This document shows, piece after piece, positions 40,033 through 61,739 of a DNA stretch of 64,000 bases. The stretch is taken from the NCBI RefSeq assembly GCF_024323335.1, contig NC_066581.1, positions 445,867,816 to 445,931,815 of the forward strand, in the 5' to 3' direction. The notes under the pieces were generated by a model that was not told the DNA's origin, did no database searches, and worked only from the letters and a program-made list of their open reading frames with translations. The first letter of the stretch is position 1, and each line of letters starts with the position of its first letter. The position numbers and the translations under genes were made by a program. This DNA comes from Lathyrus oleraceus (Eukaryota > Streptophyta > Magnoliopsida > Fabales > Fabaceae).

Positions 40033-40399
40033 CTAGAGCCAATCAGGCATTCCCCTAATGGCCATTGATCTAGTATGGCCATCATGGTTCTGCTGCGCAA
40101 GAGGCTTTGTCAGTGGGTCAGCAATATTGTCAAGTGTAAGTACTCTACATATTTTCACATTTCCTCTATCTATTATATCTCGAATGAGGTGATAACGCCT
40201 AAGTATGTGTTTGGATCATTGGTGAGATCTAGGCTCCTTAGCTTGTGCGGTAGCACCATTGTTATCACAATAGAGACCAATGGGATCCAAAATGTTAGGG
40301 ACTATGCCAAGTTCACTAATGAACTTTTTGATCCAAACAACTTCCTTTGCTGCACTTGAGGCAACAATATACTCGGCCTTGGTTGTAGAATCAGCAACT
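40033..40399 (-). pseudogene. RNase H tail of E6 pol, one stop, cut by E7
   Basis: Minus-strand reading gives TKAEYIVASSAAKEVVWIKK, then LGIVPN, YCDNNGATAQAKEPRSHQ, a TGA at 40218-40216, and in the same frame SKHILRRYHLIRDIIDRG, IADPLTKPLAQQ and HTRSM before a final stop at 40035-40033. The upstream end is cut precisely at 40399/40400 by the E7 LTR. Confidence 0.85.
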
Positions 40400-40740
40400 T
40401 GTCGCAGCCCGAAAAATACGGAGGTGCGAAAAAACAACCGGCGAAAGAAAAAATGACAGAAGAGTCGCCACCGTGCGTTATTTATCCCAAAGGAGGGAAA
40501 GGAAACGCTCGAAGTAAACCTGGAGAAAGGAAAGGAAAAGACAAGGTCTCGCAACCAAATCTTGGGTTCGGGAGTCGATTATGCGAAGGGAAGGTATTAG
40601 CACCCCTACGCATCCGTAGTACTCTACGGGATCCACTCTTGTTTGTTCCTTGTCTAAAAGGGTGTATGTTTATCTAATGTACTATTTACTAAAAGAAAGG
40701 GTCAAAGAAAATGACTCGCACGGATGTCGCATCTATTGCA

Positions 40741-41475
40741 TACGTATCTCATCCGAATATGAGAATCAGAGTCTTCGTAGCTCGGCTACCTATGGGTGAA
40801 AGAAATGTGTGCTCGCTAAGACGTCACGTCTTATGCCTACGTATCTCATCGGGAATGAGAATCAGAGAAAAACGTAGTTCAAACTAACTACGGGAAAAAG
40901 GTCTCGATTGCAACTAGGGCAAGAGAAAAGGAAGGTCTCGATCGCAACGAGGGCGAGGGAAAGGATCACAACGAGGGCGAAAGCAAACAAGGATTAGTTA
41001 TTAGTCGTTAGTCAAACTCGGCAAGACATTGCATCTTGTGCCTACGTATCTCATCTGAACATGAGAATCAGAGTTGCCGTAGTTCGGCTACATAGGGATT
41101 GCCATCTGAACATGGCACCTACACACAAAAAGGTGGCAAACATGGAGCCCGACTGCCAATCACTGGACTTACATCAGCATCCGAACCAAAACACACACAA
41201 AAGGGCAAACGTGGAGCCTGACTGCCAATCACTGGACTTACATCAGCATCCGAACCCAACAAACCCACACTGGAACCCGAATGCCACTCGATGGACTTAC
41301 ATCAACTTCCAAGCACACAACAAGAACAACAAACAACAGATTGCCAAGGAGTCGGGAACTCGAGCCTAGCAATTGTCAAACAAACACACGCAAAAAGGAA
41401 AAAAGTTGCCCGGAGTGGTCTCGCACGACCACCTGCCTACATACCTCGTCTGGAACAAGGATCAGGGCGATGTAG
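40741..41475 (-). repeat. Four copies of the conserved two-stem hairpin (E7 3' LTR)
   Basis: Copies at 40741-40779, 40837-40877, 41042-41082 and 41437-41475. Outer arms (plus strand) are TACG/CGTA, CTACGT/ACGTAG, CTACG/CGTAG and CTACAT/ATGTAG. The inner arms are TCTCAT/ATGAGA in the first three, and a diverged CCTCGT/ACAAGG in the fourth. The G-to-A change in the fourth outer arm is matched by C-to-T on the other side. Duplicated in the 5' LTR at +16233. Confidence 0.6.
41120..41310 (-). repeat. Short tandem repeats in E7 LTR
   Basis: Three copies of a unit of 60-70 bp with gactgccaatcactggacttacatcagcatccgaacc, the last diverged (atgccactcgatggacttacatcaac). The core tggacttaca is shared with the tandem repeats of the E1 and E2 LTRs. 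The short open frames across it are not called as genes. Confidence 0.7.
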
Positions 41476-42569
41476 TTCCCCTAACTAGGGGTTGCCATCT
41501 GAACATGGACTTAGAAAAGGAGGACACCAGTTGTGTCAAAGGAGAGTGGGCAATGTGTTCACGTCCTGGCAGTAGGTGTCGCAGCTCGCTGAATCGAGTC
41601 TTAGGCAGTTACCTCTTTGCAATAGAACGGACTACATGCCACAAGATCGGAGACGCTCGGAAAGGTCTAGAAGTGGGGAAGCTCTGCCCTAAAGTTGTCA
41701 TGCAATGTGTACTTAAGTGTTAGGATTTACAAATGGGAATATCTACCTAATGTTAGCATGCAAAGAATATGGGAATTCTACCTATGTTATGATACAAAAG
41801 GATATGGGAATCCTACCTTATGTTATCATGCAAAGGGTTCTATCTAATGGGTGTTACCTAATCGGAACAAGAATCGACGAATGGAGCAAGGAGAAGTGTT
41901 AGGGATAAGGGTAGATGGCGATGCATGAAGCAATCGACTTACAAGGTTGATGGCGATGCATAAAGCAATCGGCTTACAAAAGGGTGGATGAATACGTGTT
42001 GGTTCTGTTAGGTTTTGAAAAATGATTACTCGACGTTGGATCGAGGTTTTAATCTTGTTTTGAAATGGTTATCGAGTGTTCATTTTAATTCTTGTATTAA
42101 CAGGTGAATAAAGAATGAAAGAAATAAATATTATACATTTCATGGGAGAGGGGTACATTTGTTATGAATGGGGGTTGTCATGGCAATCAAACAATAATAA
42201 TACATGCCTCATACACCATACAAGTAGGCCACAGTTAATCAAACAATTAAGATATAAACAAGTATATAATCAAATCAAATAATCAAAGAATGAAATAATA
42301 AAGCATTAAACAATGTATGAGTGTAAGTGCAAAGAAACCGGCTCATTGTAAGAAAGCCCAAGAGTAAGCTATGTGAGGTCGACGGCGATGCTTAAAAAGC
42401 GATCGACTTACGAGGGTGTGAAAAAAGGGGCTCGATATTAAATCGAGAAAAGTATGATTTTTAAGGTTTGAAAAAGTGGATTTGAACTAAATACAACAAC
42501 TTCACATCATTAACAAAATGAAACATATGAGTGTAATAAAGGCATAAACATAAAAAGAAACTAAGATGC

Positions 42570-42910
42570 TAAAAGAAAAAAAATAAAAAAAAAAATAAAA
42601 AAATAAAAAATAAAAAAATAAAAAAAAAAAATAATATAGCTAAAAGAAATAAAATGCCAAAAAAAATGCCACGCATGAGTATTGAACCCACCCCACTCAA
42701 GAATATGAACCCTGCCCTTCTCCACCAGGCCACTCATCATTATCTGCTACTAAGATACTACGTTAAATATATGAACCGGGATAAAAAAAATAAAAAGATT
42801 TAAAAATAAAAAATAAAAAAACAAGATAAATATTTTTATGGTTTTTGTATTAAAAAACAAAATAAATTAGATAATAAAAGAAAATTTTAAAAAAAAGAAA
42901 AAAAAACGAA
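42570..42910 (-). repeat. A/T-rich microsatellite tracts in E7 3' LTR
   Basis: Runs of (A)n broken by single T at 42580-42640 and 42786-42910. The matching tract in the 5' LTR (58807-58842) is a nearly pure A run; the net length difference between LTRs here is 27 bp, as expected from slippage after insertion. Confidence 0.85.
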
Positions 42911-43427
42911 ATGGAGACAGGAACTCGTCTTCCTCTCTTCTCCCCCACCTCACGAGCTCAACCTTCCCCAACAATGGCCTTCTACCCCAGCATCTCTAAA
43001 TCGAGATCTTTCTCTGCTCTTAGTCGTCACCTCCCTTCGCTTAACCTCACTCGCTTCTCATAATCTCTCATTCGCTTTCAAGCGCTACCCTCGAACTTTC
43101 TCACGCTCTCTACAAACTCTCTCAAGCGAAGATTTCTCCCTGCTCTCAGAATCACTATCCCTCAAACTTACCCAAACGTCTCTCAAATGTACTCAAACGA
43201 ACCCTTTTTAATCACTCTCAGCTCTCACAAAAAAATCAAACAACAAGCATAAAGAGAGAGGAAGAGAGGTCCTTACAGAGTGTCACTGCAGTGGTGGTGA
43301 AGGATGCGAAGAAACTGGCCTCCAGGTAAACGAATTTGGGACTTTAGGTTTCCTCTCAGATTTTTCGCCTCCTTGTTTCTGTTGTTTTCTTCAAAAAAAT
43401 CCCCTCCTCTCTTACTGATTTCTCTCC

Positions 43428-43434
43428 TTTTATA
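43428..43434 (-). promoter_or_regulatory. LTR TATA box (E7 3' LTR)
   Basis: TATAAAA on the minus strand in CAGAAATATAAAAGGAGAG. All host-derived fragments lie upstream of it, that is in U3. The 5' LTR copy, the one that would drive the element, is at 59634-59640. Confidence 0.6.
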
Positions 43435-43970
43435 TTTCTGTGAATTAGGGTTTCAAAGGTGCCTTTGGTAATCCAGAAGAGTAACTCTGCAAAGCACTTT
43501 TGATGTTCAGAAACTGGATTGACCCCTATGGTGTATGGATTTGAGACAGGTAATCTGAGCATCTGAGCATTCCTCTCTGTTTTTGTTTTAATTCCAATTT
43601 GGGAATTTCTGGATTTTGAATTTTACTGCTTTGAGTAATTCTCCACTTTTTACTGCAGTGAATTTCGGTTACAAGTGGAGCGAAAATCAGTTACAAGTGG
43701 AGTGGATGGTCCCAATCAAGTTTGTTCATTGACAGATCCCTCTGGATTTGGTCTTCGGTGACTTGTGGGTCGAATATGCTGAGGTTGGCTCATGGTTCAC
43801 AGCTTGGTAGGTGAATCCTTGCATTGCAGAATGATTTGGGGACCTGCTCCAATGCCATTCAGACTTAGTTTTACAGGGCGTGTGAGGTTTGCATTTGGCC
43901 TTGTGTTGGTTCTACAATGTTGCTGCAGTAACCTTTGCTCATGTTCTTGTTTTGAAGTAGAACCGTTGGA

Positions 43971-44513
43971 GTTGGCTCTGGCTTTGATGTATATTTTTAA
44001 AGCAAGATCGTTGTCCACAATCTTCACAAGATCTCCAAGCTCCTCACTGCACTCAAACTTGTCCTCTGCCAACCAATTCTCCAAAAGATTTTTCTTATTC
44101 TGATTCACAACAAGCCGTGACAATTCCAGCGATTCAAAGGCATTCGGCTTTCCTCTTGTTAAAAGAGTTCCAAAATACTGCAACAGTGGTGGAGTTTGCC
44201 CAGCTTGTACAGGAACACTCTGAAATTTGGCAACGGTATCGGGTGTACGAAGGATTCCTTGCGGAGACTGAGAAGCAAGCTCAGCTGCTTTTTTGTATTT
44301 TGTTTGAGCAAATAGTTCATGGAAACGTTCCACTACCAGCTTCTCAGCACCAGGAAGGTTTCCTCTCTTGGCAAGACTTACTGCTAGCTCCAAATTGTTT
44401 AATTGACCACTGACAAAATTCACAATTGTTTGCTCATTAACGGTAGCCAGTAACACCTGGCCTCGTCTGTTAATGGCATAAAAGCCTCCCACTGATGTAG
44501 CTTCTGGCGTCAA
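43971..44513 (-). pseudogene. Captured fragment of clathrin heavy chain (3' LTR copy)
   Basis: About 181 codons on the minus strand match plant clathrin heavy chain closely as I recall it: [60 protein letters not shown] and [19 protein letters not shown]. Clathrin heavy chain forms the triskelion legs of coated vesicles; this is an internal part of a protein of about 1700 residues. No introns interrupt it although the host gene has many, which suggests a processed-mRNA source. The open frame continues 57 codons into unrelated sequence (to 43797). It starts at an ATG beside an A8 run and is not a full gene. Confidence 0.88.
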
Positions 44514-44519
44514 AAAAAA

Positions 44520-44689
44520 AATATAGGATCGGGACTAATTCTGTTCCTATATCAAACTGTATTTGTGGGATATCTATCAATATTAGGCAACAATGGCATG
44601 AACTCAACAGGATACAAATCCTTTTTTAGTCGCGTGAATAGGGCGTGACTTGGCTGCTTCAAATGATGCTTCAATTTCCCTAATTTGTC
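44520..44689 (-). other. Unassigned link between glucosidase I and clathrin fragments
   Basis: On the minus strand a coding-like stretch (IREIEASFEAAKSRP then HATKKG) follows directly on the glucosidase I segment and then loses its frame before the clathrin fragment. I do not recognise the source. It may be a further captured exon piece. Confidence 0.4.
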
Positions 44690-45085
44690 TGCGTGGTATC
44701 CATCCATCAATGTTCATCATATCTAACCAGTGTCCAATGATATCCAATGAAATATGAATATCCCAACACCAGATTAGAAATTGATGAAAACCTTCATCTC
44801 ATAAAAATCCTCTTGGAAAGAAAGACCGACTTGGTACCGCTGTGTAAGGCTCAGCAGGCCAATATGATACATAATCAACATGTTTCCTAAAATTAAGGGT
44901 TCTTGACAGAGCGATTTTTGACTGGCCATAGAAGTAGTCAATGCCGTCTAATAAGCTTCCAACGGCAGCATTACCAACAGAAATGGATTCCGAGTCCACC
45001 TTCTCAGCCAAATTGAAAATTTTCTCAATCTTTTCATCAAATGCTTGTTCTTTATATTTCAGCTCATTAGACAGTGAGGTTCCGC
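44690..45085 (-). pseudogene. Captured fragment of ER glucosidase I (mannosyl-oligosaccharide glucosidase)
   Basis: Minus-strand frame reads ESISVGNAAVGSLLDGI, FYGQSKIALSR, YWPAEPYTAVPSRSFFPRGF, then a TGA where the enzyme has a tryptophan codon (at 44807-44805), and continues GFHQFLIWCWDIHISLDIIG and WLDMMNIDGWIPR. This matches the catalytic GH63 region of plant glucosidase I, which trims the first glucose from N-glycans in the ER. Intronless and partial. The preceding segment (NELKYKEQAFDEKIEKI) looks like the adjacent upstream part of the same protein. The same stop is in both LTRs, so it predates insertion. Confidence 0.82.
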
Positions 45086-45533
45086 AACGGAATTGACGAG
45101 ATGCCGAATGAAAAACAAGATGATGAAGAATGTGAAGAAACCGATTGCGAGAACCAATTTGATGCTGACATTGTTGAATAACGGAATGGAACTACCGTAT
45201 TTGCTTCTGCCTTCATTGGGACTTAACGCAGGATGGTGTTTTTGTAGGTGTTAGCAGGGTTTTGAGTAGTGCTAATCTTCTAGAACAGGAAGCAGCAATA
45301 TCATCACTGTCCAACTTGATGACTATAACCCCCGGAAATACATATATGGAAACTGCCGTGCAGATGAAAATTGATATAACAGTTACCTCAACCGCGGACG
45401 CTACAACAACAAAATGGGCCTAAGCATACCAGCTGCAGGAAATGCAGCAACATAATCCAGCGGCCACATGATAGCTTTGGAAACCAACACCTGTAACGGC
45501 ATAAAACTGCAGCTCTTTCTCTCCTTTCCCATT
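45086..45533 (-). other. Unassigned, possibly captured, segments between carboxylase and glucosidase I
   Basis: Minus-strand coding-like pieces include NNVSIKLVLAIGFFTFFIIL (about 45160-45100), hydrophobic enough to be a membrane anchor, and WPLDYVAAFPAAGMLRP (about 45450). They do not share one frame and I cannot name the sources. The first could be an N-terminal anchor of a secretory-pathway enzyme such as glucosidase I, but this is a guess. Confidence 0.4.
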
Positions 45534-46994
45534 TTAATCACGAGGAGCTTCGCATGACAGCTTGGAACAGGACCATTTTTCAGACTGTGAACCTTGGCTT
45601 GACAATGCCCTTACCTTATCATCATTATGAACCTTTCTTATGCCTTTACCACCACCACCCCAAGATGCCTTGATCATTGCAGGGTATCCAACGACTTGAC
45701 AACTTGCAATTGCTTCCTCTGTTGTATAAACACATGCTGCCCGGTAAATTTCATCAGGAATACTACTCAAGGAGCTTTCAGGAGGAATTTTCACATGTGA
45801 ACCACTCCATGGAAGGGTTGGCACATCTGCTGCTTGAGCAATCAATGATGAACCAATTTTATCACGTTTTTCAATAATGCTGCCTGCAATACAAGTCCCT
45901 TTTGCAGTTTCTGTTCCTCGGCATATTTCATCAACAAGTACAAGGCTCTTTTTAGAGGTTCCAGCCATGATGGATCGAAGTTCGGACATCTCCACCTGAA
46001 ATGAACTTTTGTGATCAGCTGGACTATCATATGACTTCATATGAAGCATGATGGAATCAAAATATGGAATTATGGCTGATTCAGCAGGAACCATAAGTCC
46101 ACATATCCCCAGTAGTGCAGCAGCACAAATTGACCGAAGCAAACTTGATTTACCACCACCATTGGGCCCTGTCAATAGAAATAATGATTTCATATCAACA
46201 GTATTATGCGCGGCACCTCCTTCTGCTATGTTGAACCAATATGGTAATAAACCGACTATCTTCATCTCACGGTTTTTATTGGATTGCTTCCCATCCTCAA
46301 GCTTCTGGGACTCAACTATTGTAGGAAAAACCCAACTTCTTCTTCTCCCTTCACTCACATGAGCATATAAAGCTTTGGTGATCACAAGCAATGTGGAAGA
46401 AAATACAATGATGTTTATATGGGATTGCAGTTCAGCAGCAAGTTCCCTTAGAACTTCCAAAACTCTAGTTTTTGCCTTGGCATTTGCTTCATGGTACCTT
46501 GATAAGGCAGCGTCCATCTTCATAGTTGTAAACCATTCCTCACCTACCTTTTTACCTTTAGAATCTAAAGCATGCTTAAGCTGTTTAATGGGTTCCTCTC
46601 CAGGGCCACCAGCCCATATATTTTGTATAAAGCCTTTACCCTTGAACCACACTGCTTCCTGATCCCGAGAATAAGATATTTCTCCCTTAAGAATTTTAAG
46701 TGGAGATACGAAAGCTTTTATTCTAGAAACTACGGGAGTGAAATCTTCAGTGACTGTTAAATCCAAGGCCTCAGCTGCTTTGTCCACAGAAGTAAGTACA
46801 TCATTTATGTGGATTGTTTTTATTCGACCTTTCCATACAGACTCCATATCCTCAAAAAATTCATCAGGAATAACAGAGAAGGAGCTGATTTTCTGATCTT
46901 TCTCACCATCCAGATATATTATTCCGTCAATCATACTTGATGCGACTTCACATCCAGCAACCAAGGTTTCAATCTGCTCATTATGATGTTGCAT
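45534..46994 (-). CDS. Chimeric 486-codon ORF: MSH1 fragment fused to acetyl-CoA carboxylase fragment (3' LTR copy)
   Basis: The first 11 codons overlap the SABRE-like fragment in another frame. Codons about 12-381 (46961-45852) match plant MSH1, the organelle MutS homologue, over its core and ATPase domain: Walker A GPNGGGKSS, a middle segment MSELRSIMAG, and Walker B LVLVDEICRGTETAKGTC. Codons about 378-464 (45863-45603) match homomeric acetyl-CoA carboxylase, biotin carboxylase part: SLIAQAADVPTLPWSGSHV, EEAIASCQVVGYPAMIKASW and the ATP-grasp loop GGGGKGIRKVHND. The last 22 codons are unassigned. The DNA-binding and GIY-YIG parts of MSH1 and the biotin and carboxyltransferase parts of the carboxylase are absent. 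No introns. Open in both LTRs, but nothing shows that it is translated. Confidence 0.85.
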   Translation of the reverse strand: MQHHNEQIETLVAGCEVASSMIDGIIYLDGEKDQKISSFSVIPDEFFEDMESVWKGRIKTIHINDVLTSVDKAAEALDLTVTEDFTPVVSRIKAFVSPLKILKGEISYSRDQEAVWFKGKGFIQNIWAGGPGEEPIKQLKHALDSKGKKVGEEWFTTMKMDAALSRYHEANAKAKTRVLEVLRELAAELQSHINIIVFSSTLLVITKALYAHVSEGRRRSWVFPTIVESQKLEDGKQSNKNREMKIVGLLPYWFNIAEGGAAHNTVDMKSLFLLTGPNGGGKSSLLRSICAAALLGICGLMVPAESAIIPYFDSIMLHMKSYDSPADHKSSFQVEMSELRSIMAGTSKKSLVLVDEICRGTETAKGTCIAGSIIEKRDKIGSSLIAQAADVPTLPWSGSHVKIPPESSLSSIPDEIYRAACVYTTEEAIASCQVVGYPAMIKASWGGGGKGIRKVHNDDKVRALSSQGSQSEKWSCSKLSCEAPRD

Positions 46995-47440
46995 TGAAAA
47001 TGTCCAAGTTTGATTTCAGTTTCAGCTCTAGCAAGTAAGATTGACTGCACTGGGACATAGACAAAGCAGATCAAATTCACCTTTGTTATCTCCAGGACGG
47101 GAGCGCCGGCTTCTCTAAGAAGATGAATTTCTCTGAACTCCAGTTGAAAATGAAAGCGAGTACTCTCCCCAATAGCCTTATTGGAACGTGATTTGATGCT
47201 ATTAAATTGAATGCCAGTGATATTATTTTCAACAGAAAGACCATGCTTGCTATGTTCAAAACTCACATTCAGCTTTGGTAGATTGAAGCACACCTTCTCA
47301 GGAAACAAAGAACTGAAGCGTGCTAGTTTTTCTTGCTTCTTTTGAAAGATTGGAGAATCCAAATCATGAACTTGTAACAAAGTGAAATCATTGGTTTTGT
47401 CAGTTGAAATTGTAACTGAATTCGGTGCCATCAGTGTAAG
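46958..47440 (-). pseudogene. Captured fragment of a SABRE-like protein gene (3' LTR copy)
   Basis: Within an open frame of 181 codons (47476-46931, minus) the part from about 47440 matches the plant SABRE / KINKY POLLEN family as I recall it: LFPEKVCFNLPKLNVSFEHS, GLSVENNITGIQFNSIKSRS, EFREIHLLREAG and MSRLKPWL. These are very large membrane-associated proteins needed for cell expansion; this is a small internal piece without introns. It runs directly into the MSH1 segment near 46958, where the reading frame changes. The upstream edge of the capture is not sharply visible. Confidence 0.7.
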
Positions 47441-47927
47441 AATAAAAATGAAACCTTTTATTTGTGTCAAAACCAAAAACTAAATTTTGTCCAATGGCAA
47501 TGGAAGATGATTAGAGATTTTTCTTCAACACTAAAGGGTCATGGTTATATTATTTACAGGTTTTTTTTTTGTATGTGTGATTGGTTTCTTTGGCGTAATT
47601 TGGATATGGACATGAGTTTATTTTATGACTTGAATGCTTGACTTTGAAAAGAACATGACTTGACTGGTAGTGTGCGTTAACCAGGCCATGAAATGATGGT
47701 ATAAGATTAGGATTTGAAAGGGATATTCATGAATCAAATGGTGTGATTGGCAATTGGCTTGTGACACAAGAAGGTTGGTTGTTCAGATGACCCAAACCAT
47801 AGAGGTATCTACAATCACAACACCATGACTTTGGATCAAAACCAATCCTCATGTAAAACCAAAGTTAGGTTAGGCCAAGCATGCTAAACAAACATAAAAA
47901 ATTCAAGAGCAAAATCGGGGTATGACA

Positions 47928-47942
47928 GTTGCCCCTATTTAA
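47928..47942 (-). promoter_or_regulatory. Polypurine tract of E7
   Basis: Minus strand TTAAATAGGGGCAAC directly before the LTR start TGTCATACC. Nearly the same as the tracts of E2 and E3, tying E7 to the Ogre lineage. Confidence 0.75.
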
Positions 47943-48280
47943 GCGTCTTCAACTAGAGAATATGAGGCAGGACACTTTTCATATGATCATAGTGGGAGAT
48001 GGTTAAATACTAAGAAGACTCGGATTTTGATCCTGAATCCCTATGAAATAATTAACCATGTCTGTCGGAATCGGCAAAGAAGCAATCCCAGAAGAATCCA
48101 TCTGGTACGGTGAAAATCGGCCTGAATACCGAAACAGAAAGTTGACCTGGACACCAAAATAAATGGTAACACAGGAATACCCACGGCCTGAACGCCGCAC
48201 ATTAGTCTGAACACTAAGCATAGGAATATGAGAGTATCAATGTTGGTCTGATCACCGGAAATCTGGTCTGAACACCACTT

Positions 48281-48945
48281 TGATCTGGAAATCCAAAAAA
48301 ACTGGCCTGAATGCCACTTCGGTCTGGATACCGGGAAAACTGGTCTGAACACCACAAGTTCTTCGTCCTGACTGTTGAGAACTTCTTCGATCTGGAAATT
48401 GGAAACTGACCTGAATGCCACTTCGGTCTGGATACCGGGAACTGGCCTGAATGCCACTTCGGTCTGGATACCGGGAAAACTGGTCTGAACACCACAAGTT
48501 CTTCGTCCTGACTGTTGAGAACTTCTTCGATCTGGAAATCGGACACTGGCCTGAATGCCACTTCGGTCTGGATACTGGGAAAACTGGCCTGAATGCCACT
48601 TCGGTCTGGATACCAGGAAAACTGGCCTGAATGCCACTTCGGTCTGGATACCGGGAAAACTGGCCTGAATGCCACTTCGGTCTGGATACCAGGAAAACTG
48701 GCCTGAATGCCACAAGTTCTTCGTCCTGACTGTTGAGAACTTCTTCGATCTGGAAATCGGAAACTGGCCTGAATGCCACTTCGGTCTGGATACCGGGAAC
48801 TGGCCTGGAATGCCACTTCGGTCTGGATACCGGGAACTGGCCTGAATGCCACAAGTTCTTCGTCTTGATTGTTGAGAACTTCTTCGATCTGGAAATCGGA
48901 AACTGGCCTGAATGCCACTTCGGTCTGGATACCGGGAAAACTTCA
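48281..48945 (-). repeat. 38-bp minisatellite in E7 3' UTR
   Basis: About 14 copies of a unit like actggcctgaatgccacttc followed by ggtctggataccgggaa, spacing 38 bp where complete (for example 48621 and 48659). Four copies carry an insert of about 70 bp with caagttcttcgtcctgactg. The unit has no stop in any minus-strand frame, and since 38 is not a multiple of 3, all three frames are open for 234-328 codons; these frames are repeat artefacts. Confidence 0.9.
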
Positions 48946-49403
48946 TGTCTATCATCATCGGCGAAGATAACAAAACAGTGATACGTGAGCCGGCACGCAT
49001 GCCAAAGACCCAAGCTGGGGATAACAATCGAAAGATTGACCAAAGAGTGCATGAGATATATTATCTGTAGCCGTCAAAACGTAGATAATACACTCGCATG
49101 GAAGATTATCCATAACCGGGTTGCAGGTTGTTAAATGAATAATCGACCAAAAAGAAAGGCATTAGGGTACCAGGACCAGGCATGCAAAAGATGACCAATC
49201 AAAAGAGGATAAAGTGGCTAACTCGGAGCAAATACCCAAAAGAAAGGGGAAGACCCACTGGGGACAATACTGCTTGATCAGGGCAAGTATCCAAAGGGGA
49301 CAAGACTATCAATACCACAAAGAGGGGATTACATCTACCGGTTTGTAGGCAGAAAACCACAGAAAAGTAACCAGTCCTCGACCAGGATGAGCACAAAGGG
49401 TTA

Positions 49404-49925
49404 ACTCTGCTAGGGGATGAAAGTGGGATTTTACAACTACCAGTTAGTAGGTAGAAAACCACAAAGATAGGACTTGCAACTACCGGTTCGTTGGTAGAAG
49501 CCACAAACAGTCTGCTGAGAGACCGAGCGAGAAAAAAGGATTTACAACTACCGGGTAGTAGGTAGAAGACCACAAAATCCGCCAACAATCAGAATGAACC
49601 ACAACGGTTACCTCTGCTAGGGGATGAAAGTGGGATTTTACAACTACCAGTTAGTAGGTAGAAAACCACAAAGATAGGACTTACAACTACCGGTTCGTTG
49701 GTAGAAGCCACAAACAGTCTGCTGAGAGACCGAGCGAGAAAAAAGGATTTACAACTACCGGGTAGTAGGTAGAAGACCACAAAATCCGCCAACAATCAGA
49801 ATGAACCACAACGGTTACCTCTGCTAGGGGATGAAAGTGGGATTTTACAACTACCAGTTAGTAGGTAGAAAACCACAAAGATAGGACTTACAACTACCGG
49901 TTCGTTGGTAGAAGCCACAAAGTCT
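49404..49925 (-). repeat. 207-bp tandem repeat in E7 3' UTR
   Basis: The word ctctgctaggggatgaaagt occurs at 49405, 49612 and 49819, spacing 207 bp; the third copy is partial. Each unit holds three short hairpins with arms CTACC/GGTAG (for example 49437-49454, 49480-49497, 49548-49565). The copies are nearly identical, so the duplication is recent. Confidence 0.9.
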
Positions 49926-52421
49926 GCCGAGGATAAGATGAATGAGTGCCGGTTAATGAGCGACTATTCATTTATGCCCCAGGGAAGCACGGGCGACAGC
50001 CAACAGGAAGCCAGTTTAGGATCGATCCAAAAAGGCAGACTGAATCAGGACTCATCCTAATGAGGAAAGAACTCAATAGGGAAAACCCATCCCATTAGGG
50101 AGGGAACGGAAACAACCGTCATCCACGAGGATGTAACTCAGTGGGGAGCGCAGAAGGAAATGGTAGACACTTTCTGCTTAAGGGGTAGACTCTACGTGGA
50201 GAGATCAGACACACCCACTTCTGCTAAGGGAATGGACCCAAGCTTGCAAGATGCTGCCAACCTCGGGGAGTAACACTGCTGGGGATACCCACTCAACTAA
50301 GGAGTCACTTGTTGGGAAAACACCAACTTCTCAACCATGCTGATGAACCCAATTCTGAAGCCGATCCAATGGCGCGATGCTAAACTCTTTCCAACAACCC
50401 AAACTCGGTTGGTCACCACGGCCTAGGGCTAATGGATATGTTTGCAATGTTGATGCATGAGTTTTTTTTGTTTTACACAATGCCCCATGATCCTGGAAAT
50501 GCTATGCACTAATGATGCAATATGCTATGCTTATCTAAATGATGAATGCATAAACACACGTCTCCTCCAGAGACAACACCGGGGAACTCCAGGAATTGTG
50601 CTGAGGATCCTATAACCATGTCAACTTCCATCCTGCTGGGGAAAGACAAACCTTGCTGGGGATGCACTCCATCGAACCTGAACTGCTTGGAGATTATCCT
50701 GCTAGGGGAGGCAACCCATTCTTATCTCTACTGGGGATGATTTTCTCCGAACCCGATCCGCTTGGGGACCTCGCTGAGGGAAAACCATCAACACAAACCC
50801 TACTGGGAAGGCAGTAACCTTTAGGCTCGCTGAGGAGACACTGATCTTGAATCTGTTAGGGAGGTAACCCTCTCACACCTACTGGGGAAATACAGCTTAC
50901 TGGACACGGAACACCTGTCGAGTCGCCGAACAGCGGCATCCATCGTCCACCCACAGTGTCGGCTTTCCTCTTATGAGAACACCCAGACTCGCCTAGACTC
51001 CTCTGATTCATCCCACGAAGATCGAATTCCTGGGATTCATACAAACTTTCCGGTCCTTAGACTTTGAAGAGTCTTCTTGATTAACTTTCCAGGACTGTCG
51101 TCGTAATCCTTCACTGTCTCTTCACCGTTCAACTATCTCTTTCCCCTGATCAGGCTCTGCAGCAGAGATCGTTAGATAAAAACGCGCCCCAGGTATGCCC
51201 CAGGTGTTCCGATATTTCAACGCCTAAGTCACTCAAACTTCCGAATAAGATTTCCAGATTTCAACCTCATAAGCATGCATCGGAAGGGACCTTTATGTTT
51301 CAAAATGAAAATATTCTTATCAAAATAAACGGATGTTTTCGTAATCAAAACGGTAATGACACAAAAACAAAATTTATTTGACCGAACACACGCTTTATTG
51401 ACTGGAATAAAAGATGGCTCACAACCGAGCAACACACAGGAAGCAAACCCTGGAAAGAGGTGATTGCACATAAAAGGAAAAAATCTATCCTAATGGCAAC
51501 GTGAAACTGTGATCTCATCGGGTTCCAACTCAGTTACACCCCATATGTCCTCAAGACTTTCCGCACTTTCTGTCTTCTGAACAAAACGCTTCCGATCGGT
51601 CTCTGTCGGAGATTCTCCAAGTCATCATGAGCACAAACGATCATGCTAGACGCAGTTGTTCGTTTCATTCCCTCTTTTGCCTGGACCGCCCTTTCGGGTT
51701 TCAGTCCACCGGGATACCCTTTTTTGCCCAAGTCGCCCTTGTGGGGTTTTCGACTTGCCGGGTGTACAGTTCTTTTCATTTATTATCCCTAACTTTTGCC
51801 CGAACCTTTTCTCTCTTTTTTTTTTTGGTTCGCCGGGATGCCCTTTTTGCCTGGACTCTTTTATTCTTTTTGTCCAGCAGGCCTCTTTTTCACGAAGTAT
51901 CTTTTAACTGCGTCCGCATTCACAGGGGATGGAAAATCCTCATCATCCGTGGTCGTCAGCGACAAGGCTCTGTCAGAGAAAACCCTCTTTGACCACGAAC
52001 GGACATTCATAATTGTTTACCCACTTGCCCCACGATCGTCTTGAGGAGGAAGGATCCTTTTCAACACCACATCTCTTCCATGCTACCCACGAGGTCGCAC
52101 TTCTCGGTCAACAACACGCTTCATTTACTGGGTACAACTGCCCCATGACAAGTAACTGTCAGCCTCTTTTCCCAACCAGGCTCAACGCGTTATACCGAGT
52201 TCTCATCCACTCGCCCTTTTCTAACTTCTCATCCATCCGGACTCTTTACAATGAAATCTAGCCTCCAGCAGGCCATATCACTTCCATCCCATACCGCATG
52301 AGGAAGACGTTGCCCCAGTAGATGCACGTACCAAAGTACGACACTCAGGATACCAACTTCGTACTCAGCCACTAACATTGGTGCGTTCACATGTTATCAG
52401 GGAAGCACTAGCTCACTCTCT

Positions 52422-52968
52422 TTAAACTCTCCCCATCAGACATCTAAACCCATTCGGATTCGGGGTCAGGCCCCTCCTCCGGGATCGGTCACTCTCAATC
52501 TTTCGATTCGAGTACCTCGAGATGTCCTCATCAGGGACTTCAGACTTCCTTGGTTGACAATCATCAGTGGGTTGTTGGGCGAGATAACCATACAATACCC
52601 TCCTCTTGGTTGCTTTCTGGGAGGTATATTGAATATCGTATTCAGTTGACATCACTTGCCCTCTCACAACCCGTCCGTTCGATGCTAGCTCCCCAAGCAC
52701 ATACTTGATCAGATCCATTTTGGACATCCACAAGATGGTATGAACCAGCATACACTGTCTCAATCGGCGAGCAGCCTATGCCAAAGTACATCAAGTTTTC
52801 TCGAGCAGTGAGTATATTGTTTCACAGTCTATAAACTTTTTGCTTAGGTAAATTGCGTGCTCTTTTCGACAAGACTAGTCATACTGACTCAATACGCGCC
52901 TCATAGACCCCTCAGATTAGCAGTCGTTTCTTCCCCGGAAGGTATCAGAATCAAAGGTTCCTGCTACT

Positions 52969-53007
<39 letters not shown>

Positions 53008-53895
53008 AGGATCGACCTCGACTCCTCTTTCGTTTGCAACATGCCTCGGCAGCTTGCTGGACTGCACTCCATAAGTGCGCTAATTCGAACTCAACAGTAT
53101 GAGTTATCTCTACCTGTCAAACAACTTAATCCACCGGATGCCCCTCTTCTGCTTGGGACTTTGCCATCATGTCATCAACATGGCATTTGCTTTCACGATG
53201 AATCATATCATGAAACAAAGTCACCCTAGACTTCTGATACTTGGCACCGGCCTTCTCGATACTGAACGACATCACCTTATAACCAGAAGGTGCCCCTTGT
53301 GTGATGGACATGGTTTACGTCATATCATCTGGCAACAGTTCAATCTGGTCTCGGCCAAGGAGCCATCCATGAAGATAAACTGAGCATTATAACCAATCCA
53401 ATACCTCGTTGTGACGTACCGGGAATTCATCTTTCAGATTAGCTCAGCTCACATCTCGACAGTCCACACACATTCTCATCTTTCAACACCGGTTTCCGCT
53501 TCCCTGGAGGACAGTCTTCTCTCCATGGTAACTCGTGCCTCCACAACATTGGCATCCTACCTTGGTGTATCTAGATACAACCAGGCGCACATATACCATC
53601 CTGTTCTTGACCTGCATCTGAAGCGGCCTCAATATTCACTTTCTGACTTCGGCGGTGCTTGGAGCAACAATTCTGAGCACTCCTCATGCGGTTGAATCAC
53701 CTTCTCCTCTGGTTTCAACGACCCGGCTAATTCCAACAAATCACAATCTTCTTCGCCTTCTCCTTCGGCATGATAGATCGAATTGTCGAAGTCATACAAA
53801 GGTGTAACCAAATTGTTATCGATGAGATCAGGAGGGTAATCACTTTTAAGGTTGGAACGAGACAAGTTCGAAAGAAAAACGAAAAACATTGCCAT
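52422..53895 (-). pseudogene. Ruined reverse transcriptase/RNase H region (E7)
   Basis: Minus-strand pieces align by eye to E2 pol: 53895-53629 (acidic linker, EEKVIQPHEE against EEKIIQPHLE in E2), 53311-53126 (GYKVMSF.. and FHDMIHRESKCHVDDMMAKS, with HVDD at the YVDD site), and 52763-52422 (MDLIKYVLGE and EYDIQYTSQKA, first RNase H). Many stops and shifts separate them, and a run of 35 T lies at 52971-53005. The second RNase H and the integrase are not found; the sequence passes into 3' UTR. No active polymerase could come from this copy. Confidence 0.8.
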
Positions 53896-54081
53896 TTTTA
53901 TTTTTATTTTAAAACTGTAAAAAATGAAAAACAGGGAACACCGCTTTTAAACACAAAAACATCCATTTATTACTGATGCAAAACGTTGCAAAATGAAACA
54001 CATGAGATGGCCCTTACAATGGACCAGTACGTTTCGGGCAAAACGTATGGCTTTCATGCAAACAAAATTAAAACAGAAATA

Positions 54082-55449
54082 CTACACTTCCGGATGAGCG
54101 ACAGTAATGCTTTTGGAGGCCTTCCAGTTGCCTGGTACGCACGACTTTATCCACAGCTCGAGCTCGCGGTCGCGGTCGATCTCTTCACTCACTGAACAAG
54201 CATGATCAGAATCCATCATTCCTGCACTGACAAAGATGTACGGTGGACGACGTCCTCTGTTTGGTCTAGACGACTCTTGATCTGGATAACCAATCCCGAA
54301 CATGTCTGCCTTTACCACTATGTCGATGATCCTGCCCCAACCTCGGGCCTCTTGGTTCTTCACCACCTCTAGAGCTTGTTTATAGGAGGAAATGGACAAC
54401 TTCTTCTCTTTCTCGACGACAAGAGCGCTCTCCACCTGGACGGTTTCGATTGCTTGCCTGGGTATTTCAAGTTTTCCAATGTCCATTTCTACTTCTTTCA
54501 TCTTCTGGGTCGTGTCTCCCATCAATACACACCCCTCTGTGGCAACGGCCGCACAGCAATTATCAACCACAGGGAAGACTCCATCCTGCACCAGAGGTTC
54601 TGGGACCACAGACATGGGAACCTTTAACTGATCTTCCTCAGTCATCTCCATTCCTTTCTTGACCTTCTTCACCATCTTCATCTTTACAGGACCCTGCCTG
54701 GGTACAGGGTTGACATCCCCCTCCATGATTTGTGCCAAACCGATGATCTTGGAGTCCACCAAGTCTTGGACAACATGCTTGAAAGCCCTACAACCCTCAA
54801 CACTGTGCCCGGGTGCCTCAGAATGGAACTCGCACCTGGCATTCTCGTCATAGTTTGGAAGCCTCCGCTGCTGTTCTACAGGAATCAAAATCCTCGGCCG
54901 AACTAATCCCAGATCTCTCAATCTCCTGAACAAAAGGGTATAAGTCACAGGTGGTTCCTCAAACTGACGATCCTCCTTCTTCTTCCTCACCTGGATCTTA
55001 GCTCTCGGTGCCTTCTGTTGAAGTGGTGGTTGTTGCGGGGGTACAGGTGAGTTACCAACAAGAGTGGTTACAGCAACAGCATAAGGATGATAACGATCCT
55101 TACTGCGTTCTTTCTTTGCTGGCACACCACTTGACTCAACCTCCTTTTTGAGCGGACCACTGTCAGAGAGTTTCTTTGCTACCGAGCCAGAGGGATTTGT
55201 TACATCGGATGATGAAGCCTTTCCCTGAACTTTCTCCTTGATCATCCAGCTCTCAATCCTTTCCAATCTCTCAGACATGGCTTTCTGCCCCAAGGCAAGC
55301 CCTTGCACAATACTGAACAATCCCCTCATCATCTCTTTCAGTTCAAGGATGTCGGCGTTGGGAAGATCCATCAGCTTGGATTTGTTGAGTCTGATTGTAT
55401 GTCTGAATGGAAGAACTATGCGTACCGGTTGACACCTACAAAACAACAA
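54082..55449 (-). CDS. gag-like protein of E7 with protease deleted (455 codons)
   Basis: An open frame from an ATG at 55449. Residues about 33-70 form a likely coiled coil (LKEMMRGLFSIVQGLALGQK, then SERLERIESW). A basic, Pro/Gln-rich segment follows, then TYTLLFRRLRDLGLV and a zinc-knuckle-like CEFHSEAPGHSVEGC (about residue 206), as in Ogre gag. Downstream, the part that should hold the protease is missing: no DTGSS is present, and the frame passes to SISSYKQALEV..GWGRIIDIV..GIGY, equivalent to the segment after the protease in E2 (about 10075-10180). An in-frame deletion that keeps gag open suggests selection for, or recent origin from, a working gag. Confidence 0.8.
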   Translation of the reverse strand: MLFCRCQPVRIVLPFRHTIRLNKSKLMDLPNADILELKEMMRGLFSIVQGLALGQKAMSERLERIESWMIKEKVQGKASSSDVTNPSGSVAKKLSDSGPLKKEVESSGVPAKKERSKDRYHPYAVAVTTLVGNSPVPPQQPPLQQKAPRAKIQVRKKKEDRQFEEPPVTYTLLFRRLRDLGLVRPRILIPVEQQRRLPNYDENARCEFHSEAPGHSVEGCRAFKHVVQDLVDSKIIGLAQIMEGDVNPVPRQGPVKMKMVKKVKKGMEMTEEDQLKVPMSVVPEPLVQDGVFPVVDNCCAAVATEGCVLMGDTTQKMKEVEMDIGKLEIPRQAIETVQVESALVVEKEKKLSISSYKQALEVVKNQEARGWGRIIDIVVKADMFGIGYPDQESSRPNRGRRPPYIFVSAGMMDSDHACSVSEEIDRDRELELWIKSCVPGNWKASKSITVAHPEV

Positions 55450-56607
55450 ATGGGTTAGTATGACTCACGCATGCAATGTCTATCCGTACCAGGAATATTC
55501 CTTTGATTTTGGTTTCACAGAGAGAGATAATTTTTCATCAATAACATTCTGACATCTGGCTATCTCTCAACCAGAATCTTAATCAAAAAGTGGACCCTGA
55601 GTACGGATAGACACGAGTTGAATGCAGATGAATGCGATGCAAATGCATGAATGCAAGTCACTGCGCCACCAAGCCATCTGAAGACCCATTCTCTGAACTA
55701 GTCACAGTCATCGGGACTAAGTCACCATAAATCCGACTTGGGGAGTTCCGAAATAAACGGAACTGGGGATTACATCACTATCATCACAAGAACATCCACT
55801 GAACGGATGACAGTCAGATCCTCTGAACAGGTACTTTCAAAATCAACCCGGGGGGTCCGAAATAAACGGAACCCATTGATAAACCACGGACAGAACTCCG
55901 GCGTCCCAGAAATAAATGTCCATAAATTCGGCTGAACCAAAGTCACCATCACAGCACCACTGGCAGAAACCGTATCTGTAGAGATCAAACCCTCCCCTCA
56001 CTGGTAGGTTCTAAGAACAGAAGTTTGTCAGCTTCAGCCCTTTAGTCGAGAATAATACGTTTACCACTGAAGGTTTGGCATTATTACGGGATAAAAGACC
56101 TCTGCTGACTCACCTCAACAGGACATCCTAAAGCAAGTTCCCAGTCTCGGGGTCCTCGGATTGAGCAACGAGAATGCGCCCACCAGAGCTAACATAATCA
56201 CGTCTCGGAGGAGAGGCCTCGACTGAGTTCTCGGGAAATGGTCACCAGAGTCGACGATTTCTAGAGGAATATCTGTCGTTATGGAACACCCATAGGACAG
56301 AATATATCCAAAAGAAACCTCGTCTGGAATGTGGGTCTCATGAACGACTTAACGTAGCAACATACCACGCAAGCCTCATGACTATCCACTCTAACACCTA
56401 TGTGTACACTCAAGCCTGGGCAGTGGGCTTATCTCTCGTAGAACAGTCCCAACCCAACAAACAAACAACCCACAGATACAGCAAGCATATGTACATGAAT
56501 GCAATAAGGTAAAGCAGGTAAATGCTGAAAATAAATAACTGTACAAAAGAATAAACACCTAACAAACAAGAAAACTACAAAAGCTAGGAGGGACTCGCTT
56601 AGGGAAA
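55450..56607 (-). other. E7 5' leader
   Basis: About 1.16 kb between primer site and gag. No ORF1 is found here, unlike E1. The word gaaataaacggaac recurs near 55749 and 55859 with a related gaaataaatgtcc near 55910, a weak internal repeat of about 55-110 bp spacing. Nothing coding recognised. Confidence 0.55.
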
Positions 56608-56609
56608 CT

Positions 56610-56630
56610 GGATCCCCAGCAGAGTCGCCA
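56610..56630 (-). promoter_or_regulatory. Primer binding site of E7 (tRNA-Arg type)
   Basis: Minus strand TGGCGACTCTGCTGGGGATC, two bases after the LTR end. It fits the 3' end of plant tRNA-Arg with the same core as E1 but differs at two bases (TCTGC against TCCAC), so a different tRNA-Arg isoform may prime. The match ends after about 21 nt, unlike the 40 nt in E1. Confidence 0.8.
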
Positions 56631-58808
56631 GCTGTCGCAGCCCGAAAAATACGGAGGTGCGAAAAAACAACCGGCGAAAGAAAAAATGACAGAAGAGTCG
56701 CCACCGTGCGTTATTTATCCCAAAGGAGGGAAAGGAAACGCTCGAAGTAAACCTGGAGAAAGGAAAGGAAAAGACAAGGTCTCGCAACCAAATCTTGGGT
56801 TCGGGAGTCGATTATGCGAAGGGAAGGTATTAGCACCCCTACGCATCCGTAGTACTCTACGGGATCCACTCTTGTTTGTTCCTTGTCTAAAAGGGTGTAT
56901 GTTTATCTAATGTACTATTTACTAAAAGAAAGGGTCAAAGAAAATGACTCGCACGGATGTCGCATCTATTGCATACGTATCTCATCCGAATATGAGAATC
57001 AGAGTCTTCGTAGCTCGGCTACCTATGGGTGAAAGAAATGTGTGCTCGCTAAGACGTCACGTCTTATGCCTACGTATCTCATCGGGAATGAGAATCAGAG
57101 CAAAACGTAGTTCAAACTAACTACGGGAAAAAGGTCTCGATTGCAACTAGGGCAAGAGAAAAGGAAGGTCTCGATCGCAACGAGGGCGAGGGAAAGGATC
57201 GCAACGAGGGCGAAAGCAAACAAGGATTAGTTATTAGTCGTTAGTCAAACTCGGCAAGACATTGCATCTTGTGCCTACGTATCTCATCTGAACATGAGAA
57301 TCAGAGTTGCCGTAGTTCGGCTACATAGGGATTGCCATCTGAACATGGCACCTACACACAAAAAGGTGGCAAACATGGAGCCCGACTGCCAATCACTGGA
57401 CTTACATCAGCATCCGAACCAAAACACACACAAAAGGGCAAACGTGGAGCCTGACTTCCAATCACTGGACTTACATCAGCATCCGAACCCAACAAACCCA
57501 CACTGGAACCCGAATGCCACTCGATGGACTTACATCAACTTCCAAGCACACAACAAGAACAACAAACAACAGATTGCCAAGGAGTCGGGAACTCGAGCCT
57601 AGCAATTGTCAAACAAACACACGCAAAAAGGAAAAAAGTTGCCCGGAGTGGTCTCGCACGACCACCTGCCTACATACCTCGTCTGGAACAAGGATCAGGG
57701 CGATGTAGTTCCCCTAACTAGGGGTTGCCATCTGAACATGGACTTAGAAAAGGAGGACACCAGTTGTGTCAAAGGAGAGTGGGCAATGTGTTCACGTCCT
57801 GGCAGTAGGTGTCGCAGCTCGCTGAATCGAGTCTTAGGCAGTTACCTCTTTGCAATAGAACGGACTACATGCCACAAGATCGGAGACGCTCGGAAAGGTC
57901 TAGAAGTGGGGAAGCTCTGCCCTAATGTTGTCATGCAATGTGTACTTAAGTGTTAGGATTTACAAATGGGAATATCTACCTAATGTTAGCATGCAAAGAA
58001 TATGGGAATTCTACCTATGTTATGATACAAAAGGATATGGGAATCCTACCTTATGTTATCATGCAAAGGGTTCTATCTAATGGGTGCTACCTAATCGGAA
58101 CAAGAATCGACGAATGGAGCAAGGAGAAGTGTTAGGGATAAGGGTAGATGGCGATGCATGAAGCAATCGACTTACAAGGTTGATGGCGATGCATAAAGCA
58201 ATCGGCTTACAAAAGGGTGGATGAATACGTGCTTGTTCTGTTAGGTTTTGAAAAATGATTACTCGACGTTGGATCGAGGTTTTAATCTTGTTTTGAAATG
58301 GTTATCGAGTGTTCATTTTAATTCTTGTATTAACAGGTGAATAAAGAATGAAAGAAATAAATATTATACATTTCATGGGAGAGGGGTACATTTGTTATGA
58401 ATGGGGGTTGTCATGGCAATCAAACAATAATAATACATGCCTCATACACCATACAAGTAGGCCACAGTTAATCAAACAATTAAGATATAAACAAGTATAT
58501 AATCAAATCAAATAATCAAAGAATGAAATAATAAAGCATTAAACAATGTATGAGTGTAAGTGCAAAGAAACCGGCTCATTGTAAGAAAGCCCAAGAGTAA
58601 GCTATGTGAGGTCGACGGCGATGCTTAAAAAGCGATCGACTTACGAGGGTGTGAAAAAAGGGGCTCGATATTAAATCGAGAAAAGTATGATTTTTAAGGT
58701 TTGAAAAAGTGGATTTGAACTAAATACAACAACTTCACATCATTAACAAAATGAAACATATGAGTGTAATAAAGGCATAAACATAAAAAGAAACTAAGAT
58801 GCTAAAAG

Positions 58809-59640: not shown

Positions 59641-60176
59641 TTTCTGTGAATTAGGGTTTCAAAGGTGCCTTTGGTAATCCAGAAGAGTAACTCTGCAAAG
59701 CACTTTTGATGTTCAGAAACTGGATTGACCCCTATGGTGTATGGATTTGAGACAGGTAATCTGAGCATCTGAGCATTCCTCTCTGTTTTTGTTTTAATTC
59801 CAATTTGGGAATTTCTGGATTTTGAATTTTACTGCTTTGAGTAATTCTCCACTTTTTACTGCAGTGAATTTCGGTTACAAGTGGAGCGAAAATCAGTTAC
59901 AAGTGGAGTGGATGGTCCCAATCAAGTTTGTTCATTGACAGATCCCTCTGGATTTGGTCTTCGGTGACTTGTGGGTCGAATATGCTGAGGTTGGCTCATG
60001 GTTCACAGCTTGGTAGGTGAATCCTTGCATTGCAGAATGATTTGGGGACCTGCTCCAATGCCATTCAGACTTAGTTTTACAGGGCGTGTGAGGTTTGCAT
60101 TTGGCCTTGTGTTGGTTCTACAATGTTGCTGCAGTAACCTTTGCTCATGTTCTTGTTTTGAAGTAGAACCGTTGGA

Positions 60177-60719
60177 GTTGGCTCTGGCTTTGATGTATAT
60201 TTTTAAAGCAAGATCGTTGTCCACAATCTTCACAAGATCTCCAAGCTCCTCACTGCACTCAAACTTGTCCTCTGCCAATCAATTCTCCAAAAGATTTTTC
60301 TTATTCTGATTCACAACAAGCCGTGACAATTCCAGCGATTCAAAGGCATTCGGCTTTCCTCTTGTTAAAAGAGTTCCAAAATACTGCAACAGTGGTGGAG
60401 TTTGCCCAGCTTGTACAGGAACACTCTGAAATTTGGCAACGGTATCGGGTGTACGAAGGATTCCTTGCGGAGACTGAGAAGCAAGCTCAGCTGCTTCTTT
60501 GTATTTTGTTTGAGCAAATAGTTCATGGAAACGTTCCACTACCAGCTTCTCAGCACCAGGAAGGTTTCCTCTCTTGGCAAGACTTACTGCTAGCTCCAAA
60601 TTGTTTAATTGACCACTGACAAAATTCACAATTGTTTGCTCATTAACGGTAGCCAGTAACACCTGGCCTCGTCTGTTAATGGCATAAAAGCCTCCCACTG
60701 ATGTAGCTTCTGGCGTCAA
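60177..60719 (-). pseudogene. Captured clathrin heavy chain fragment (5' LTR copy), with a new stop
   Basis: Same fragment as 43971-44513. A single base change turns the tryptophan codon of ENWLAEDK into TGA at 60281-60279, splitting the frame; the other LTR copy keeps it open. The change therefore arose after the element inserted. One further substitution gives KEAAELA where the other copy has KKAAELA. Confidence 0.88.
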
Positions 60720-60895
60720 AAAAAAAATATAGGATCGGGACTAATTCTGTTCCTATATCAAACTGTATTTGTGGGATATCTATCAATATTAGGCAACAAT
60801 GGCATGAACTCAACAGGATACAAATCCTTTTTTAGTCGCGTGAATAGGGCGTGACTTGGCTGCTTCAAATGATGCTTCAATTTCCCTAATTTGTC

Positions 60896-61291
60896 TGCGT
60901 GGTATCCATCCATCAATGTTCATCATATCTAACCAGTGTCCAATGATATCCAATGAAATATGAATATCCCAACACCAGATTAGAAATTGATGAAAACCTT
61001 CATCTCATAAAAATCCTCTTGGAAAGAAAGACCGACTTGGTACCGCTGTGTAAGGCTCAGCAGGCCAATATGATACATAATCAACATGTTTCCTAAAATT
61101 AAGGGTTCTTGACAGAGCGATTTTTGACTGGCCATAGAAGTAGCCAATGCCGTCTAATAAGCTTCCAACGGCAGCATTACCAACAGAAATGGATTCCGAG
61201 TCCACCTTCTCAGCCAAATTGAAAATTTTCTCAATCTTTTCATCAAATGCTTGTTCTTTATATTTCAGCTCATTAGACAGTGAGGTTCCGC
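60896..61291 (-). pseudogene. Captured glucosidase I fragment (5' LTR copy)
   Basis: Same fragment and same internal TGA as 44690-45085. One difference noted: DGIGYFYG here against DGIDYFYG in the 3' LTR copy; glycine is what I recall for the host enzyme. Confidence 0.82.
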
Positions 61292-61739
61292 AACGGAATT
61301 GACGAGATGCCGAATGAAAAACAAGATGATGAAGAATGTGAAGAAACCGATTGCGAGAACCAATTTGATGCTGACATTGTTGAATAACGGAATGGAACTA
61401 CCGTATTTGCTTCTGCCTTCATTGGGACTTAACGTAGGATGGTGTTTTTGTAGGTGTTAGCAGGGTTTTGAGTAGTGCTAATCTTCTAGAACAGGAAGCA
61501 GCAATATCATCACTGTCCAACTTGATGACTATAACCCCCGGAAATACATATATTGAAACTGCCGTGCAGATGAAAATTGATATAACAGTTACCTCAACCG
61601 CGGACTCTACAACAACAAAATGGGCCTAAGCATACCAGCTGCAGGAAATGCAGCAACATAATCCAGCGGCCACATGATAGCTTTGGAAACCAACACCTGT
61701 AACGGCATAAAACTGCAGCTCTTTCTCTCCTTTCCCATT

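Follow-up and report, generated by a model that had tools for sequence, protein, structure and literature searches.

PMC13317346 treats as established both the uptake of host gene sequence by plant long terminal repeat (LTR) retrotransposons and template switching of an abnormal kind, and it describes maize Bs1 as a single LTR retrotransposon with segments of three host genes. A maize survey, in its excerpted text, reports 425 intact elements with host gene fragments and at least 189 captures; under the conditions of that survey, no element combined fragments from two or more standard nuclear genes (PMC2774510). Retroduplication, in which spliced mRNA is carried by LTR elements, is described in part of PMC5664825 for NLR and other genes of pepper, potato, tomato and rice, including cases of two or three genes inside single elements. 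Template switching has also brought foreign sequence into BARE-2 of barley and the Veju terminal-repeat retrotransposons in miniature, in BARE-2 into the LTR region (relevant section of PMC13317346). Among giant elements, Ogre LTRs are listed at 1.9-6.5 kb in the available portion of PMC6431247, and the main text of PMC4659654 names Ogre as the most abundant repeats of Fabeae. The locus considered here is a window of 64,000 nucleotides from Lathyrus oleraceus (C3:445867816-445931815; C1 to C7 denote contigs of the same 3.795 Gb assembly, which was searched whole for parents and relatives), and it contains an LTR retrotransposon with pieces of at least five host genes inside each LTR. The best explanation, to which a probability of about 0.83 is assigned, is that a Tat/Ogre-type Ty3/gypsy element took pieces of spliced host mRNAs into the unique 3' part of its LTR (U3) by template switching.

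Captured gene pieces and their parents

Five gene families were recognised by Pfam on the minus strand of 43797-47476 (Clathrin_H_link, E-value 3.6e-27; Glyco_hydro_63, 1.1e-22 and 7.6e-17; CPSase_L_D2, 1.1e-08; MutS_V, 9.7e-28; Hobbit, 3.7e-29), and PDB sequence matches concur for the four that were compared, namely clathrin, acetyl-CoA carboxylase, MutS/MSH and glucosidase I. Parents were found in the assembly for these five and for a sixth piece, X, with exon-by-exon identities of 91-100%; since the parent genes occur elsewhere in the assembly at this level of identity, the family matches are not due to chance. The five families had been proposed in a first-pass annotation, which is confirmed here by Pfam, the PDB matches (four of five) and the parents, and extended by X and some short pieces.

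The pieces lie, all on the minus strand, in a variable bay most likely belonging to U3 (43666..47615, minus strand), the borders of which are alignment ends and approximate. From low to high coordinates, they comprise a clathrin heavy chain fragment of five joined exons (43966..44552; parent C5:290287605-290289357(-), 93-99%), an endoplasmic reticulum (ER) glucosidase I (GH63) fragment (44666..45212; parent C7:134662122-134668592(+), 91-100%), fragment X (45258..45609; parent locus L020 at C7:379.38 Mb), an acetyl-CoA carboxylase (biotin carboxylase) fragment of three joined exons (45598..45865; parent C5:306232085-306232712(+), 95-99%), an MSH1 fragment of six exons and the opening bases of a seventh (45851..46966; parent C6:286972983-286982792(+), 97-100%) and a Hobbit/SABRE fragment of four joined exons (46957..47346; parent C2:158792522-158803999(-), 95-99%). 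Parent-matched pieces account for 3223 of the 3950 bp of the bay; the short pieces Y, Z and W are without assigned parent. The first-pass annotation had also placed a repeat of the whole block in the other LTR, and the LTR alignment indeed maps a second copy to 60003..63682 (minus strand), at an offset of +16206 from 43797-47476; the fragments are present in both LTRs and not confined to one.

A base-by-base reading revealed that, for each of the five named parents, the captured exons adjoin precisely at their borders, without the introns between them. In the glucosidase I piece, the GH63 exons are joined to an exon 4 kb off through an internal jump at 45076-45082; judging from the translation, this distant exon is probably the N-terminal one. 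Fragment X spans no intron in the window element, and a longer capture of X in the relative L017 is without two introns of the parent locus. The captured sequence thus corresponds to retroduplication, as opposed to the transduplication of Helitrons and Pack-MULEs, in which genomic DNA is taken up with its introns.

Over the compared stretches, MSH1 is 98.9% identical to its parent (12 differences in 1091), the carboxylase 99.1% (2 in 216), SABRE 98.4% (5 in 314) and clathrin 98.1% (10 in 529). The synonymous and nonsynonymous changes, respectively, number 5 and 7 for MSH1, 1 and 1 for the carboxylase, 2 and 3 for SABRE and, in codons, 3 and 7 for clathrin, too few to judge selection. A 493-aa open frame at 45537-47015 (minus strand) fuses the MSH1 and carboxylase pieces, each in its native frame, which could be chance (one in three). 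An older clathrin capture, ~76-80% identical to the gene, is found at L044:953-1266 and L045:510-823, with paired matches on C1, C4 and C5; it lacks one intron and sits inside a different set of paired repeats. The clathrin message seems to have been captured twice, or else an old capture persisted.

Joins between the pieces

Four joins could be resolved to their sources, and at each of them two stretches of message meet directly in microhomology, uninterrupted by a poly(A) tail: 14 nt are common to both parents at the carboxylase|MSH1 join, 10 nt at MSH1|SABRE (the word GCAACCAAGG), 8 nt at X|carboxylase and 7 nt at the internal jump of glucosidase I. For random breakpoints between the captured stretches, a match of at least 7 nt has a frequency of 0.0006. 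The word GCAACCAAGG spans an exon-exon border of MSH1, placed by splice-site consensus. In the MSH1 gene an intron interrupts the word, and the match between MSH1 and SABRE therefore exists only in the spliced mRNA.

Orientation, lineage and age of the element

The mobile unit is delimited by a direct pair of LTRs with TG..CA ends. In element orientation, the 3' LTR occupies 40400..47927 (minus strand, 7528 bp) and the 5' LTR 56633..64132 (minus strand, 7500 bp), the latter being in the window up to 64000 with its final 132 bp past the edge. A 5-bp target site duplication, CAACT, is located at 40395..40399, and its partner copy follows directly after 64132, outside the window. The LTR length of 7.5 kb given by the first-pass annotation agrees with these ends. 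The internal region (47928..56632, minus strand) measures 8705 bp.

Next to the 5' LTR, 2 nt from it, the primer-binding site (PBS) TGGCGACTCTGCTGGGGA is found without mismatches at 56613..56630 on the minus strand; it is assigned to tRNA-Arg. It also occurs at 0 mismatches in 4 of 13 other relative or flank loci scanned (L011, L012, L015 and L026), while it was not checked whether the other nine include the PBS side of an element. In a relative at C4:34.26 Mb, a single open reading frame (ORF) contains RVT_1, RT_RNaseH, RVT_3 and Integrase_H2C2 (a zinc-binding domain of integrase) by Pfam, on the same strand as its own cargo. Since both the PBS and this pol ORF lie on the cargo strand, the element runs on the minus strand, and its gene fragments are in sense orientation. 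The initial reading, a plus-strand element with antisense cargo, was overturned by the same two features.

The Tat/Ogre order of pol domains, i.e. reverse transcriptase (RT), RNase H, a second (archaeal-like) RNase H and integrase, is seen in the C4:34.26 Mb relative and not in the window element; the Ty3/gypsy Tat/Ogre label is tentative and follows general features of that lineage. Of the 38 minus-strand ORFs of at least 50 aa in the internal region, 32 were given to Pfam and none matched gag or pol; the copy is therefore probably non-autonomous. A 460-aa open frame close to the PBS (54085-55464, minus strand) has no Pfam match and is perhaps a gag remnant or gag substitute. Tandem direct repeats occupy 48245-49931, within the 3' portion of the internal region and close to the 3' LTR; arrays of this kind are characteristic of Ogre elements and can give rise to satellites. 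ARAGORN detected no tRNA genes in the window.

Between the two LTRs (40400-47927 and 56633-64132), 25 mismatches were counted in 7500 aligned bases, corresponding to a Kimura two-parameter distance of 0.00334. At a substitution rate of 1.3e-8 per site per year, this divergence yields an insertion age of ~0.13 million years.

The variable LTR bay and its contents in relatives

The element strand of the LTR has a single TATAWAW, a TATA box at 43428..43434 (minus strand), which at 43434 lies 232 bp downstream of the bay. TATAAA is kept at the aligned place in six of nine alignable relatives (ten were tried). As the bay lies upstream of the TATA box, it is most likely situated in U3 and precedes the likely promoter; the unusually rich capture in U3 suggested by the first-pass annotation fits this placement.

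Relatives align to ~40400-43665 and 47616-47927 and differ between these stretches, save where cargo is shared. Their bays are filled with different host fragments, among them PI4K, ribophorin II, Dicer-like and NUP85. The scan by Pfam covered 13 bays with 104 element-sense and 80 antisense ORFs of at least 65 aa, at most 11 per bay and strand. At E <=0.001, 27 models were obtained from the sense ORFs versus 4 from the antisense ORFs. The 25 sense models shown can be grouped into ~18 gene families, the five of the window element included, and none of these 25 is a transposon domain. The antisense models are GH116N, a creatinase-like domain, a DUF of L028 that stays below threshold and a viral antigen model, the last being regarded as chance. 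The GT20, AAA_12 and creatinase-like matches could not be placed in a named bay, even after Pfam on 10 further ORFs.

Two sets of relatives enter these comparisons: L010, L014, L016, L017 and L022 were chosen for cargo shared with the window copy, and 11 backbone relatives (L024, L025, L027, L028, L039-L041 and L047-L050) were hand-picked, not randomly drawn, as top matches to the LTR backbone. A host piece above the curated Pfam cut-off is present in 8 of the 11 backbone relatives, in element sense in L025, L027, L039, L040, L041 and L048 and only in antisense in L024 and L049. For L047-L050, 14 of 65 ORFs of at least 60 aa were given to Pfam. A constant length of the bay (3.1-4.8 kb in the first relatives) was considered and dropped, since the bays of L047 and L050 are shorter.

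Two of these other captures are likewise spliced: the PI4K capture in L010 has 8 exon matches to its parent at C5:17.37 Mb, and the ribophorin II capture in L041 has 14 to its parent at C3:165.72 Mb. On C1 and C2, PI4K pieces are also found in pairs separated by 15-16 kb. A contiguous 1.2 kb copy of ribophorin II, 79% identical, at C2:116548836-116550053 is perhaps an older capture or a retrocopy. The bay of L027 (C1:374.5 Mb) contains CAS/CSE1, a helicase C-terminal domain and a Dicer-like RNase III, with Dicer-like 3 as best PDB match; this retrotransposon carries part of a message of the host silencing machinery.

Sharing of junctions among copies

The ten joins were searched for in the fetched loci with 39-base words centred on each join, allowing at most 6 mismatches; L001 and L002 are the window element's own LTRs and L009 is its own right LTR end. 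The Y|clathrin junction is present in elements on C4, C1 and C7 as well as in the window element on C3, which places a captured piece inside a transposed mobile unit. The C4 element also has Z|glucosidase I, the glucosidase I jump and glucosidase I|W, the last of which recurs in L048 at 5 mismatches, and X|carboxylase is present in L016 (C1:283 Mb). The junctions clathrin|Z, W|X, carboxylase|MSH1 and MSH1|SABRE were detected in no other fetched element, and SABRE|U3 only in L009. In the whole-genome search, in which all first-look candidates were scored, full-length matches to the MSH1 and SABRE parts were restricted to the window element's own two LTRs; shorter, partial MSH1-like or SABRE-like matches away from the parents exist, e.g. 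at C4:207.06, C3:186.46, C2:48.47 and C1:217.73 Mb.

The relatives, therefore, hold nested subsets of the cargo with matching junctions, and the full five-gene block was found in the window copy only. The first-pass annotation had proposed that several copies with the same junctions would support a capturing family and that the five gene fragments would be spread by all copies of the family. The sharing of junctions is borne out for the subsets and not for the block as a whole; the second proposal is not supported, the other copies carrying subsets or other genes. Taken together, the nested junctions and the whole-genome matches suggest that the window copy united a clathrin plus glucosidase I line with an X plus carboxylase line and gained MSH1 and SABRE.

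Proposed capture mechanism and alternatives

Capture could have proceeded in the following manner: Host mRNAs would be packaged together with the element RNA. Once the first strand transfer has taken place, the growing minus strand would extend into U3, where the reverse transcriptase may move from the element RNA to an mRNA through a short stretch in common, in some cases jump once more, and would then resume on the element before the polypurine tract. Later rounds may add, trim or exchange cargo by switching between co-packaged element RNAs. As both LTRs are made from a single copy of U3, the cargo would appear in both, in sense orientation and without introns.

Several observations weigh against this proposal. 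Neither packaged RNA nor any transcript was observed. L010, L012 and L014 lack TATAAA at the aligned position, and the U3 placement therefore rests on a motif. Six joins (Y|clathrin, clathrin|Z, Z|glucosidase I, glucosidase I|W, W|X and SABRE|U3) are not resolved to two parents, which leaves a small sample of microhomologies. Among the ORFs given to Pfam, L047 and L050 have no recognisable gene piece, and L028 has the sub-threshold DUF only. Finally, simple minus-strand switching does not predict antisense pieces, and the host-like antisense matches, GH116N in L024, reticulon in L049 and the creatinase-like one from a bay that is not named, thus count against it; such pieces need another route. 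A switch to mRNA during plus-strand synthesis, or to cDNA or antisense transcripts, would explain the pieces of L024 and L049. Plus-strand switching to mRNA, however, predicts antisense cargo, whereas the recognised cargo is mostly sense, and this route is considered improbable.

Other routes would join the pieces outside the reverse transcription of the element. Successive insertion of separate retrocopies (processed pseudogenes) into an LTR that was then amplified would account for the loss of introns, and the contiguous ribophorin II copy at C2:116.55 Mb is in favour of it; such insertions would, however, have to be numerous within one 4 kb bay and in many copies, and they do not explain why two messages abut in microhomology without poly(A) at the four resolved joins, which makes this route quite improbable. 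Least credible is that the pieces were first joined in a DNA transposon of the Helitron or Pack-MULE type and later inserted into the LTR: Helitron-type elements do gather several genes, up to nine in maize Helitrons (available portion of PMC6431247), but the exact removal of introns already contradicts this origin, the MSH1|SABRE join depends on a spliced exon border, and other LTRs carry other genes in the same bay. A different question is whether selection keeps the bay, fresh host exon sequence in U3 helping the element, e.g. against sequence-matched silencing. That the bay is at one place in 8 of the 11 backbone-chosen relatives with unlike contents would agree with this, but tolerance of insertions in distal U3 gives the same pattern, and the substitution counts are too few to show selection; selection is therefore regarded as unlikely, if less so than the alternative routes of capture. 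Most likely, the cargo is a tolerated passenger without selected function; no sign of a function was seen.

The balance tips slightly towards a clade-wide picture, in which a hypervariable U3 bay of Ogre-type elements, just upstream of the core promoter, is repeatedly refilled with pieces of spliced host mRNAs that are swapped between elements. Each LTR would then document, together with a date, which mRNAs had been in one particle with it, and the turnover may also aid the element through renewal of U3.

Comparison with known systems

At the level of sequence, the locus gives evidence of the way in which host genes enter a plant LTR retrotransposon, including a join whose match is available only from a spliced message. 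It also locates a much-used site of capture in the LTR, next to the promoter and in a part of the element of which each insertion carries two copies. Should the bay prove general in these elements, chimeric host exon sequence is being spread by one of the largest legume repeat classes, which bears on the formation of new genes, on false gene annotations and on the silencing of parent genes.

For Ogre, the main text of PMC4659654 contains neither 'capture' nor 'gene fragment', and the available portion of PMC6431247 makes no mention of gene cargo in Ogre LTRs. Among the matches listed from open-licence PMC literature, no title or abstract opening refers to such cargo, which does not prove that no report exists. 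The place inside the LTR, the number of genes and the turnover across relatives were not found reported; several genes per element are already known, and given the two or three genes per element of the pepper study, multi-gene cargo is not new in itself.

The window element and its relatives resemble the Ogre elements of Fabeae as giant LTR elements, and one relative encodes an RT and an integrase domain along with two RNase H-like domains. Bs1 is alike in its multi-gene cargo, and its gene pieces reportedly sit in the internal region; here, they are located in the LTR, doubled and varying between copies. Gene-fragment capture is common to the elements of the maize survey, as far as its excerpted text describes them, and the window LTR, with at least five genes in the one LTR here. 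In the portion of the retroduplication study available, genes were counted between direct LTRs, functional ones included, whereas the fragments of five genes lie inside the LTR itself in the window element. Finally, the BARE-2 donor, as described in the section cited above, is another retrotransposon, whereas the donors of the bay are a series of host mRNAs.

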